Assembly (NCBI GenBank): GCA_003488465.1
Contig: DNLN01000106.1
Coordinates: forward strand, 1 to 15,548
Reading direction: 5' to 3'
DNA from: Sutterella sp.
GTDB taxonomy: Bacteria > Pseudomonadota > Gammaproteobacteria > Burkholderiales > Burkholderiaceae_F
Length of the DNA stretch: 15,548 nt
Positions 1,988 to 14,619 of this stretch are shown here, piece after piece. Positions within the stretch are counted from its first letter, which is position 1, and every line of letters starts with the position of its first letter. Made by a program: the position numbers and the translations under genes. The notes beneath the pieces are model-generated. The model was given only the letters and a program-made list of their open reading frames with translations. It made no database searches and was not told the origin of the DNA.

Positions 1988-2875
1988 ATGTCCTTCTCCG
2001 CACTGCTTCTCGTTCTTGCCGCGGCTCTCATCCACGCCACCTGGAACTATCAGCTCAAAAAAGCCAATGCGGGCCGTGCGCTCTGGCTTCTCGTCTACAC
2101 CATCACGGCGCTCGTCTCGATTCCGGCGCTGCTCATCGCCGACCCCGAATGCTTCTCGCGCATCACGCCCGTCGGCTGGCTCGTGATCTGCATTTCGGCG
2201 CCCGTGCACACGCTCTACGCCATCACGCTTCAGACCGGATACCGCAAGGCCGACTACAGCATCGTGTATCCGACCGCGCGCGGCTCTGGGCCGATGATTT
2301 CCGTGCTTGCCGCCGTGCTGATCCTCGGAAACTCCCCGAGCTTTCTGGGTGCGCTCGGCATCGCCGCCATTCTTGCGGGCATCGTTCTTCTCTCGCTCAA
2401 AGGCAGCAGCACGGAAAGCGGCGCCAGCCGCATACGCACGGGCCTCATCTGGGGCACGCTCACGGGACTTTGCATCGCGGGCTACACGTTCTGCGACGCC
2501 TGGGCGGTGCAGCAGAACACGGGACTGACGCCGTCAAGCTTTTACTTCCCCTCGATCGCACTTCGCGTCTTGTGCCTTGCGCCCTTCGTGCTCTTTTCCC
2601 CCGAGGGCATCGCTCAGATGAAGGATGTCTTTGCCGATCCCGTGAAGCGCAAGGCGCTTGCCGTCGTGACGGTGGGCTCGCCCGGCGCCTACATTCTCGT
2701 ACTCTACGCAATGACCATGGCGCCACTGGCCTATGTCGCCCCGACCCGCGAGGTCGGAATGATGGTGGGCGTGATCTTCGGCGCGATCCTTCTCAAAGAA
2801 AAGCTCTCCGCAGTGCGCCTTTGCGGCATCGCCGCCATGGTGCTCGGCGTGCTGCTGATTGCGCTCTCGAAATAA
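1988..2875 (+). CDS. EamA/DMT-superfamily permease
   Basis: A 295-residue, very hydrophobic protein with about ten predicted membrane helices in two similar halves, the standard drug/metabolite transporter architecture (two EamA repeats of about 140 residues). The N-terminal half includes LIHATWNYQLKKA and GYRKADYSIVYPTARGSGP; the second half ends PLAYVAPTREVGMMVGVIFG ... LKEKLS, typical of the last EamA helices with a charged end. Family members export amino acids, nucleosides or other small molecules; nothing in the sequence fixes the substrate. It begins 11 bases after birA with only a weak ribosome binding site, so it may depend on translation from birA. A functional link to biotin is not shown. 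Confidence 0.85.
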   Translation: MSFSALLLVLAAALIHATWNYQLKKANAGRALWLLVYTITALVSIPALLIADPECFSRITPVGWLVICISAPVHTLYAITLQTGYRKADYSIVYPTARGSGPMISVLAAVLILGNSPSFLGALGIAAILAGIVLLSLKGSSTESGASRIRTGLIWGTLTGLCIAGYTFCDAWAVQQNTGLTPSSFYFPSIALRVLCLAPFVLFSPEGIAQMKDVFADPVKRKALAVVTVGSPGAYILVLYAMTMAPLAYVAPTREVGMMVGVIFGAILLKEKLSAVRLCGIAAMVLGVLLIALSK

Positions 2876-2894: not shown

Positions 2895-3989
2895 ATGATG
2901 CGCCCCTCCCCGTTCAAACCGCTTGATGCGCCGCTTTTCGCGCTGTTTCTCCTTGCCCTGTGCGGCATCTTCTTTCCAAAGATGGTGCACATTCTCATCG
3001 GCGCCGCGTTTCTTGCGGGCACGGCCCTGCACCTGAAGGCAAAACTGCCGATCCGAGGACGCGCCTCGGGCATGCGGCGCGCAGGGCTTCTTGCCACAGA
3101 GCTCCTCGGACTTGCCCTGGCCGGCATTTTGCTTTCGGGCGTGTTCCTTTCCCTGCAGGCCTTCACCGGCTGGCAGTGGGCGGACCGCGTCGACTGGCGC
3201 TTCTGGCACATCCTGTCTTCGCTTGTCGCGATGTTTGCGCTCTTTGCGCATTTGCTCACGCAGGCCTCGCGCGCGTGGCAGGGATGGAGGTTCTATGGCG
3301 CCGCGCTCCTTGCCTTCGTTCTGATCGGCTCGGCGATCTTCGGCATTCCTTACGCCGACAGGTGGCTGCGGCACGTGGAGACGGACGTTGCCTCAGTCAC
3401 AGGCGGCGAGCCGATCGCCGCCTCCGGCAGACTGCTCACCGTCTGGTTCAGCCGCAGCGGCAACACGGCGGGCCTTGAGCAGGTCGATACGGTTTCCGGC
3501 GCCTCCTTCATGCTGGACAAGAAAAGCCAAAAGCTCTTTGGCAACGCCGAGGTTCTTGCACTCATGGCGCAGGACATGACCAAATCGGATCTTGCCGCCA
3601 TCCGGGTGCGCACCCCCTATCCGCCCGCCTATTCGGACACCGTGCGCATTGCGAAGGATGAACTGCACGCAACTGCCGATGTCGAACTTGCCGAACCAGC
3701 CCCGGATCTGTCCCGGTATGACGCCGTGATCGTTGTCTTCCCCCTCTGGTGGGGCACGGTGCCGAAGGCTGTCGAGAAGTACCTCGCAAGTTCCTCCAAT
3801 CCGCCGAGCAAGCTGATCGCCATCGTCACGCACGGAAGCAGCGGCGCAGGCGAGAGCGAGGCAAAACTCAAGTCGCTCTTTCCGGGTGCGGCCGTCGCCA
3901 AGCCCCTTGCCGTGTACAGCAGTTCCGTGCCCCATTCCCGGGCTGATGTCGCCAGATACCTCGAAGAGGCGCTTGGAGCGTCCAAATAG
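2895..3989 (+). CDS. Membrane cytochrome b (DUF4405-like) fused to a flavodoxin domain with a flavinylation-like motif
   Basis: A 364-residue fusion, started at ATG 2895 behind AAGGACAGGAAA (an in-frame ATG at 2859 overlaps the previous gene and lacks such a site). Residues 12-151 contain about five helices (12-27, 31-47, 64-89, 103-123, 133-151). His32/His46 and His105/His119 lie on helices 2 and 4, each pair 14 apart, the pattern of bis-His diheme b cytochromes. Residues 180-360 are flavodoxin-like: LLTVWFSRSGNT phosphate loop (181-191), FPLWWGTVPKAVEKYL (282-297) and THGSSGAGES. Positive loops after helices 2 and 4 predict a cytoplasmic N-terminus and an extracytoplasmic flavodoxin. An insertion after the phosphate loop carries DTVSGAS (198-204), which fits the ApbE flavinylation consensus. 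Likely role: passing electrons from the membrane to an external flavin; the partner is unknown. Fold assignment is strong; topology and flavinylation are inferred. Confidence 0.85.
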   Translation: MMRPSPFKPLDAPLFALFLLALCGIFFPKMVHILIGAAFLAGTALHLKAKLPIRGRASGMRRAGLLATELLGLALAGILLSGVFLSLQAFTGWQWADRVDWRFWHILSSLVAMFALFAHLLTQASRAWQGWRFYGAALLAFVLIGSAIFGIPYADRWLRHVETDVASVTGGEPIAASGRLLTVWFSRSGNTAGLEQVDTVSGASFMLDKKSQKLFGNAEVLALMAQDMTKSDLAAIRVRTPYPPAYSDTVRIAKDELHATADVELAEPAPDLSRYDAVIVVFPLWWGTVPKAVEKYLASSSNPPSKLIAIVTHGSSGAGESEAKLKSLFPGAAVAKPLAVYSSSVPHSRADVARYLEEALGASK

Positions 3990-13032: not shown

Positions 13033-13105
13033 TATTTTAATTAATTGAATTATAAAAAATCATCATTTTATTTTCTGCGTCAAGGCTCACATAATCTCAC
13101 CCAAC
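13033..13105. promoter_or_regulatory. AT-rich divergent promoter/operator region between lysR and the reductase
   Basis: This is the most AT-rich stretch in the window. It contains a TAATTGAATTA palindrome (13042-13052) with LysR-like T-rich/A-rich flanks. On the minus strand TATAAT (13054-13049) is a perfect -10 just before lysR but without a well-spaced -35. On the plus strand TTGAAT (13045-13050) stands 17 bases before TTATTT (13068-13073). The overlap of both promoters with a palindrome fits LysR-type divergent control; the exact sites are guesses. Confidence 0.4.
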
Positions 13106-13121
13106 CAGCGCTCTGGCGCTG
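13106..13121 (+). repeat. Leader hairpin upstream of the reductase ribosome binding site
   Basis: CAGCGC-TCTG-GCGCTG forms a perfect 6-bp stem with a 4-base loop, 14 bases before the GGAG (13136-13139) of the reductase gene. It lies in the probable 5' leader and could affect mRNA stability or initiation. Confidence 0.45.
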
Positions 13122-13146
13122 CCCTCATCTCAAAAGGAGTCAACTC

Positions 13147-14619
13147 ATGCTCAAGCTCAATCGCCGTCATTTCCTCGGTCTGTCCGCAGTGAGCGCCATT
13201 TCTGCCGCAGCACCCGCATTTGCCATGTCCGACATGTCCCTGCCCCGCAAGTGGGACAAGACCGTTGACGTTCTCGTCGTCGGCGCCGGCGGAGCCGGTC
13301 TCTCGGCAGCCATCACCGCCAAGGAAGCCGGTGTGAAGAATGTTCTCATCGTTGAAAAGATGGCCTTCCCGGGCGGCAACACCGTTCGCGCCGGCGGCGG
13401 ATTCAACGCAGCCATCAAGGCCGACTACGAGAAGGCCGGCATCAAGGACTCCCCCGAACTGCATGCCAAGCAGACCCTGGCGGCCGGCGACTATCGCGGC
13501 AATCCCGCCATCGTCAACAAGCTCACGCGTCTGGCTCCTGAAAGCGTGCAGTGGCTCAAGGACCACGGCGTCAAGTTCCAGGACCGCATCTATCAGATCT
13601 ACGGCGGCCTGTATCCGCGCGCCCGCAATCCGCTCGGCCCCCGCGGCTCGGCCTACATTCAGATCCTGACCGCCGTGTGCAAGGAACAGGGCATTCCCAT
13701 TCAGACCAAGACCCGCGTCGTCGCCTTCGTGCGTCAGAAGCCCCTCGGCGGCCGCGTGCTCGGCGTCAAGGTCGAAAGCAAGGACGGCAAGACGAGCTAC
13801 ATCCGCGCCCGCAGCGGCGTCGTGGTGTGCGCTGGCGGCTTCTCGGCGAACGCCAAGCTCTGCGGCCTGCATGATCCGCGTCTGCAGATCCTCGGCACGA
13901 CGAACCATCCGGGCGCCACGGGCGACGCTCTGAACTCCATGATCGACGCCGGCGCGGCCGTGACCGACCTCGACTACGTGCAGTGCATCCCGGGCGGCCT
14001 GCCCGATGGCAAGAAGTACCCGAACCTGTTCACGCACGTTGACCGCTTCATCTTCACGAACCTCGACGGCAAGCGCTTCATCAACGAAGACGCCCGCCGT
14101 GACGTGCTGCGCGACGCGATGCTCAACGAGCGCGACGCCGTGGCCTGGAGCATCGTCGACGCTGACGGCTTTGAACTGCAGAAGAACTCCAAGGGCCCCG
14201 AGAACGAAGCCGCCCGCAAGGAAGGCACGCTCATCATCGGCAACTCCGTGGCTGAACTTGCCAGGAACATGGGAGTCGATCCGGCAGTTCTGCAGGCCAC
14301 GCTTGACGAGTACAACAAGGCCGTCGACACCAAGAAGGATCCGCGCGGCCGCGCTCCGGGCGTGCTCGTGCACAAGATCATCAAGGCTCCGTTCTACGCC
14401 GGCAAGCTCACGATGAAGCGCCACCACACGATGGGCGGCGTGGTGATCGACACCGATGCCCGCGTCATCGACCGCGACGGCAACGTGATTCCGGGTCTGT
14501 ACGCAGCCGGTGAAATCACGGGCGTCGTGCACGGCACGAACCGAGTGGGCGGCAACGCCATGGCCGACATCTTCACGTACGGCCGCGTCGCCGGCAAGTC
14601 CGCGGCAGCCAGACTCTAA
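13147..14619 (+). CDS. Tat-exported FAD-dependent reductase of the fumarate/urocanate reductase (FccA/UrdA) fold
   Basis: A 490-residue protein started at ATG 13147, which has GGAG 7 bases upstream and begins a twin-arginine signal (NRRHFLGLSAV ... APAFA, residues 5-26). The mature protein is an FAD_binding_2 domain: VDVLVVGAGGAGLSAA (40-55), E70 for the FAD ribose, PGGNTVRAGGGFNAA. Motifs of the catalytic core are NEDARRD (313-319, proton-shuttling Arg), HHTMGGVVID (426-435) and HGTNRVGGNA (462-471), matching the Arg402, His504 and Arg544 regions of Shewanella FccA. It has neither a cytochrome c domain nor an FMN_bind domain, so a separate partner must supply electrons. Where FccA has QAHP and VTEAVRG, this protein has QCIP (Cys280) and FTHVDRF (His297), so a substrate other than fumarate is likely. 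Probable role: terminal reductase for an unsaturated acid in anaerobic respiration. Confidence 0.88.
   Translation: MLKLNRRHFLGLSAVSAISAAAPAFAMSDMSLPRKWDKTVDVLVVGAGGAGLSAAITAKEAGVKNVLIVEKMAFPGGNTVRAGGGFNAAIKADYEKAGIKDSPELHAKQTLAAGDYRGNPAIVNKLTRLAPESVQWLKDHGVKFQDRIYQIYGGLYPRARNPLGPRGSAYIQILTAVCKEQGIPIQTKTRVVAFVRQKPLGGRVLGVKVESKDGKTSYIRARSGVVVCAGGFSANAKLCGLHDPRLQILGTTNHPGATGDALNSMIDAGAAVTDLDYVQCIPGGLPDGKKYPNLFTHVDRFIFTNLDGKRFINEDARRDVLRDAMLNERDAVAWSIVDADGFELQKNSKGPENEAARKEGTLIIGNSVAELARNMGVDPAVLQATLDEYNKAVDTKKDPRGRAPGVLVHKIIKAPFYAGKLTMKRHHTMGGVVIDTDARVIDRDGNVIPGLYAAGEITGVVHGTNRVGGNAMADIFTYGRVAGKSAAARL

Follow-up and report, generated by a model that had tools for sequence, protein, structure and literature searches.

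A flavodoxin fused to a four-histidine membrane domain in Sutterella is a candidate single-chain electron carrier with probably covalent FMN

The window analysed here is a 15548-base stretch of contig C212 (DNLN01000106.1) from a Sutterella sp. genome, and it carries a gene whose product joins a DUF4405-like membrane domain to a Flavodoxin_4 domain with a flavinylation-type motif. We consider this fusion protein a likely single-chain transmembrane electron carrier, with two b haems and a periplasm-facing flavodoxin that holds flavin mononucleotide (FMN) covalently. The FMN is probably attached to Ser204. A sequence-only reading of the same DNA had proposed a covalent FMN on this flavodoxin, and the proposal gains support because the site fits the consensus of the flavin transferase ApbE, is conserved among relatives, co-occurs with ApbE and is predicted to lie outside the cytoplasm, and because gels have been published for two comparable Flavodoxin_4 proteins.

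Translation from the ATG at 2895, which has AAGGA upstream at 2883, upheld the frame and numbering of the sequence-only reading for FSRSGNT (residues 185-191) and DTVSGAS (residues 198-204). In a Pfam scan covering six of the window's proteins, Flavodoxin_4 (PF12682) matched the C-terminal part at 40.1 bits (cut-off 24). The AlphaFold2 model (mean predicted local distance difference test score, pLDDT, 86.6; predicted template modelling score, pTM, 0.76) has a strand at 180-184 and a helix at 217-229, with residues 192-215 between them. This insert, earlier put at about 25 residues, counts 24 between T191 and G216; G216 (3540) opens GNAEVLALMAQDM right after it. DTVSGAS was rightly taken for an ApbE-type motif, since it fits D-x-x-[S/T]-G-A-[S/T] exactly, the consensus on whose last residue ApbE puts FMN according to the parts of PMC12052999 used here. 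The main text of PMC11334425 (mSystems 2024) describes Flavodoxin_4 proteins in which the motif sits in an insert that follows strand 1 and precedes helix 1; two of these proteins were covalently flavinylated on ultraviolet gels in a manner that required the Ser/Thr. The strict motif arose in 39 of 20000 shuffles of the window protein, and the 14 other window genes checked all lack it.

The conservation of the site was followed in several collections of relatives. A protein search gave four relatives besides the query, and one with an alignment as query gave 14 rows in all; in each, only the best 7998 candidates were scored. Reference genomes were also scanned for two peptide patterns, the motif itself and a second one, and this yielded 65 loci. 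To avoid this circularity, we counted the motif among those open reading frames of the 65 loci that scored at least 100 bits and held the non-motif pattern; it was present in 44 of 46, and in the remaining two (L102 and L104) the insert is truncated or cannot be read. Three further frames hold neither pattern and show DTSSSAS (L103), a motif-less insert (L044) and no motif (L074). A 40-row alignment of compact fused proteins has V200, S201, G202, A203 and S204 invariant, together with H32, H46, H105 and H119, and Asp at position 198 in 39 rows; the rows were selected as fused and motif-bearing, and the invariance is partly due to that selection. In these rows, D198 is the only one to vary of the four residues for which the sequence-only reading had proposed an invariance check. 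When 189 genomes of a single order were searched with a profile, 30 full-length or nearly full-length fusion loci came up, all with VSGAS, preceded at position 1 of the motif by Asp in 29 and Asn in one. Conservation at 26-76% identity is a stronger argument for the site than the chance estimate. Variants of the motif include SAVSGAS (P0004), AAVSSAS (L095), NAVSSAS (L097), DAVASAS (L080) and DAVTSAS (L101). Two motif-bearing flavodoxin genes adjoin at L103:5782-7208 (DTSSSAS and DAVSGAS), and the insert of L145 reads DAVTHATAS, which we classed as motif-less. A split form is seen in the window's own family (L135:3093-3599 and L023:2393-3470), where a four-His membrane gene overlaps a flavodoxin gene with DATTSAS.

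ApbE co-occurs with the fusion: 48 of the 50 carrier genomes given for the 65 loci have it. Within the order of 189 genomes it was found in 93, namely 29 of the 30 fusion carriers and 64 of the 159 others (one-sided Fisher p 1.6e-9, kinship ignored), and these others include three genomes with partial fusions and ApbE (G080, G086 and G217). It is also present in 8 of 10 genomes of the window's genus and 47 of 67 of the family. None of the nine genomes of genus g2 has ApbE; two insert-bearing flavodoxins from this genus were read (L018 and L009), and both lack the motif. In G154 a stand-alone flavodoxin match adjoins apbE. Weak matches suggesting apbE linkage in L072 and L074 were discounted because the query frame was wrong.

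The membrane half was modelled with helices at 8-22, 29-50, 59-91, 101-126 and 130-158. Five helices, together with the charges of the loops, predict a position outside the cytoplasm for the flavodoxin side. This half contains two H-x13-H pairs, which the sequence-only reading did not mention. Such a two-pair spacing resembles that of transmembrane di-haem b proteins. The DUF4405 profile (PF14358) matches 22 of the 40 aligned rows at an expectation value of 1e-3 or better, the window protein among them. It is quite improbable, in our view, that the protein is flavinylated with the membrane part as a mere anchor, the flavodoxin trading electrons with soluble partners and not with haems. Such an arrangement would suit the many motif-bearing relatives that have no fused four-His domain and appear one-helix or lipoprotein-like; the four histidines with their di-haem-like spacing, each kept in all 40 fused rows, argue against it, and so does the haem b reported in the main text of PMC11334425 for one DUF4405 protein. 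The membrane half alone was matched in three genomes of the family (G044:C5:326180-326539, G045:C1:871069-871428 and G047:C7:20239-20577), perhaps as free-standing DUF4405-like genes. Odd single rows in the profile results (poxvirus A14, TauE, 7TMR-DISM) and TAL-effector rows were judged to be chance.

Besides the selection of the 40 rows, several observations weigh against the proposed covalent carrier. The N-terminal half scored 22.6 bits against DUF4405, below the cut-off of 26.7, and its model shows five helices, against the six that the main text of PMC11334425 gives for this family. The final motif residue is Ser, a poorer ApbE acceptor than Thr, and DAVSSAS, with Ser for Gly at position 5, is frequent in the long and split forms; in the parts of PMC12052999 used here, Gly to Ala left about half of the flavinylation and Asp to Ala had a minor effect. 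ApbE was not detected in the carrier genomes of L092 and L095, nor in G224, the only such genome among the 30 with a fusion. Among the stretches of the 65 loci, many of them cut by contig ends, apbE stands beside the fusion only in L042, in a search for which part of the ApbE query frames had been wrongly chosen. No constant partner gene was found among four neighbours per side at 61 loci.

The genome of the window itself (1631185 bases, 227 contigs, 84.89% complete) also gave no ApbE match, an absence that the sequence-only reading had named as telling against flavinylation. The absence stands as found, and it is probably due to a gap in the assembly. The genome has two FMN_bind matches, which are likely further ApbE substrates. 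We compared seven apbE regions from genus-mates (L106-L112). An FMN_bind gene lies about 0.3-2.1 kilobases from apbE in five of them (L107, L108, L109, L111 and L112) and about 8 kilobases away in L110, and there is none on the piece of L106. On the other side of apbE come what we take to be an amidohydrolase-like gene and then pyrE. Contig C156 of the window's genome holds glnS-like, flavoprotein and FMN_bind genes that match these regions. Because past FMN_bind C156 breaks off within a group II intron (L117:1-151) and a truncated pyrE starts at the very first base of contig C219, the stretch expected to hold apbE is missing from the assembly, and apbE probably lies in it. The amidohydrolase-like gene was not found in this genome either, in a search without a positive control that counts little; the cut pyrE weighs more, and we set aside the absence of ApbE as a refutation.

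We then weighed the alternative that FMN is bound non-covalently as in ordinary flavodoxins, with the insert as a structural loop and its motif incidental or a relic. FSRSGNT does resemble an ordinary phosphate loop, the window's genome has no detected ApbE, and motif-less inserts occur at the same place in other Flavodoxin_4 proteins (L018, L009, L124 and L044:12145-12867), three with twin-arginine-like N-termini and one lipoprotein-like as read by eye. This alternative is nevertheless unlikely. The site is kept down to 26% identity and ApbE co-occurs with it, and the two published proteins with a motif-bearing insert (PMC11334425, main text) are covalently flavinylated. In addition, some relatives have a phosphate loop that departs from FSRxGNT, reading FTWPENA or FTYAENA, with DAVSGAS intact (L003:1489-2550 on the minus strand; L004 and L077, one gene; L081; L093). 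From the sequences, an altered loop with a kept Ser fits a covalent bond that replaces phosphate binding; the loop could alternatively be another old form, given its likeness to the FSMPET seen in the motif-less group. In L004 and L077 (Mesosutterella porci) the fusion gene is interrupted, which may be gene decay in that species or a sequencing error.

A tree was built by a quick method, with the insert columns dropped and three rows left out, and serves for placement only, as its deep splits are weak and long branches group together. The window protein falls with Sutterella-like relatives within a group of Selenomonadales and Sporomusa proteins, apart from the remaining flavodoxins of its family; this nesting suggests horizontal transfer. 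Motif-bearing second copies of L103, L101 and L092 fall inside a motif-less PRK06934-like group, and L135 falls elsewhere. Given the long branches, and since L101:10820-11338 and L092:973-1500 are short pieces, a repeated gain of the tether site in the same insert is a suggestion. We put forward tentatively, as a picture somewhat more doubtful than not, that a single-chain wire exists in two or more phyla whose genomes mostly carry apbE at another place, that the tether replaced the phosphate loop in some lineages, and that the tether site was perhaps gained repeatedly.

In the electron carrier that we favor, the five helices would hold two b-type haems, one between H32 and H105 near the outer face and one between H46 and H119 nearer the inner face. 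The C-terminal flavodoxin would stand outside the cytoplasm, where ApbE would move FMN from flavin adenine dinucleotide onto Ser204, which lies in the inserted loop next to the phosphate site. The tethered FMN could then be seated in the flavodoxin pocket, unable to diffuse off. Electrons would most likely run from the quinol pool through the two haems to FMN and on to a soluble periplasmic acceptor. The positions of the features are collected below.

Table 1. Positions of the fusion gene, its predicted features and the upstream gene in the window
Feature	Position	Strand	Basis or remark
Fusion gene, 364 amino acids: DUF4405-like membrane domain and flavinylation-type Flavodoxin_4	2895..3989	+	Pfam scan, translation
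Five-helix membrane domain, residues 1-158	2895..3368	+	AlphaFold2 model
First predicted pair of haem ligands, H32 and H46, in helix 2	2988..3032	+	each His in 40/40 rows
Second predicted pair of haem ligands, H105 and H119, in helix 4	3207..3251	+	each His in 40/40 rows
Flavodoxin domain, residues 177-363	3423..3983	+	Pfam Flavodoxin_4
FSRSGNT, phosphate-loop-like, after strand 1, residues 185-191	3447..3467	+	N190 in 40/40, G189 in 37/40 rows
24-residue insert, residues 192-215, from loop to helix 1	3468..3539	+	alignment, model
DTVSGAS flavinylation motif, residues 198-204; predicted FMN-bearing Ser204, codon 3504-3506	3486..3506	+	conservation, consensus
EamA-family transporter	1988..2875	+	directly upstream of fusion gene, 19 base-pair gap

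The EamA transporter and the fusion gene are perhaps on one transcript. The same order recurs in L002 and is not seen at L003; a role for EamA as a flavin exporter was considered and not adopted, the linkage being limited to the window and L002 (L041 has the same gene). Also in the window are a presumably birA-like gene on the plus strand and, downstream of the fusion and convergent with it, what we take from their sequences to be cytochrome c maturation genes. A FAD_binding_2 flavoprotein at 13045-14619, with the signal-like stretch LNRRHFLGLSAVSA, is a possible periplasmic reductase, and a LysR gene lies on the other strand. Across the 61 loci, the commonest neighbour groups, neither of them constant, are a small protein that we take to be FMN-reductase-like (11 loci) and one presumably aldo/keto-reductase-like (10 loci).

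If our assignment is right, the flavinylated Flavodoxin_4 class would gain a self-contained membrane protein that occurs in Sutterella-like Burkholderiales, Negativicutes and Clostridia. Searches of apbE neighbourhoods would largely miss this fusion. A predicted haem-to-flavin path in one chain would be a handy object for studying how electrons reach extracytosolic flavins, and the lineages that keep Ser with an altered phosphate loop could be a natural test of the covalent bond's purpose. Such tethers have also been engineered into other FMN proteins (PMC10722498, in the parts used here).

A flavinylation site inside a flavodoxin had seemed unusual in the sequence-only reading, a view now out of date, as the class is already known: insert-bearing, flavinylated Flavodoxin_4 proteins were published and tested in 2024 (PMC11334425, main text). 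The window protein is like Anaerocolumna xylanovorans SHO45324.1 and Desulfosporosinus lacus WP_073032509.1, Flavodoxin_4 proteins that by their published description carry the motif in an insert joining strand 1 to helix 1. Those two were found through co-localised apbE; in the fusion the flavodoxin shares its chain with a membrane domain, and apbE is seldom near. The main text of PMC11334425 describes gene clusters of apbE, DUF4405 and flavinylated Flavodoxin_4 as separate genes, and its wording contains neither "fused" nor "fusion" nor "single polypeptide"; we found no description of a flavodoxin-membrane domain fusion in open-licence PubMed Central papers. DUF4405 cytochromes (PF14358) share the membrane helices and four conserved His, but the window protein scores below the family cut-off, is modelled with five helices and not six, and has the flavodoxin as part of its own chain. 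PRK06934-type flavodoxins (NF005389) likewise belong to Flavodoxin_4, have export-like N-termini and carry an insert at this position, but they lack the motif in all four rows read (the four motif-less proteins above). FMN_bind proteins (PF04205) have, as we understand it, the same ApbE modification and motif, whereas their fold is unrelated to the window flavodoxin, and PF04205 gave no match in the window protein (Pfam scan, expectation value 0.1). Compared with these systems, the present analysis mainly adds the fusion of two known modules, its spread, its conservation and its association with ApbE.
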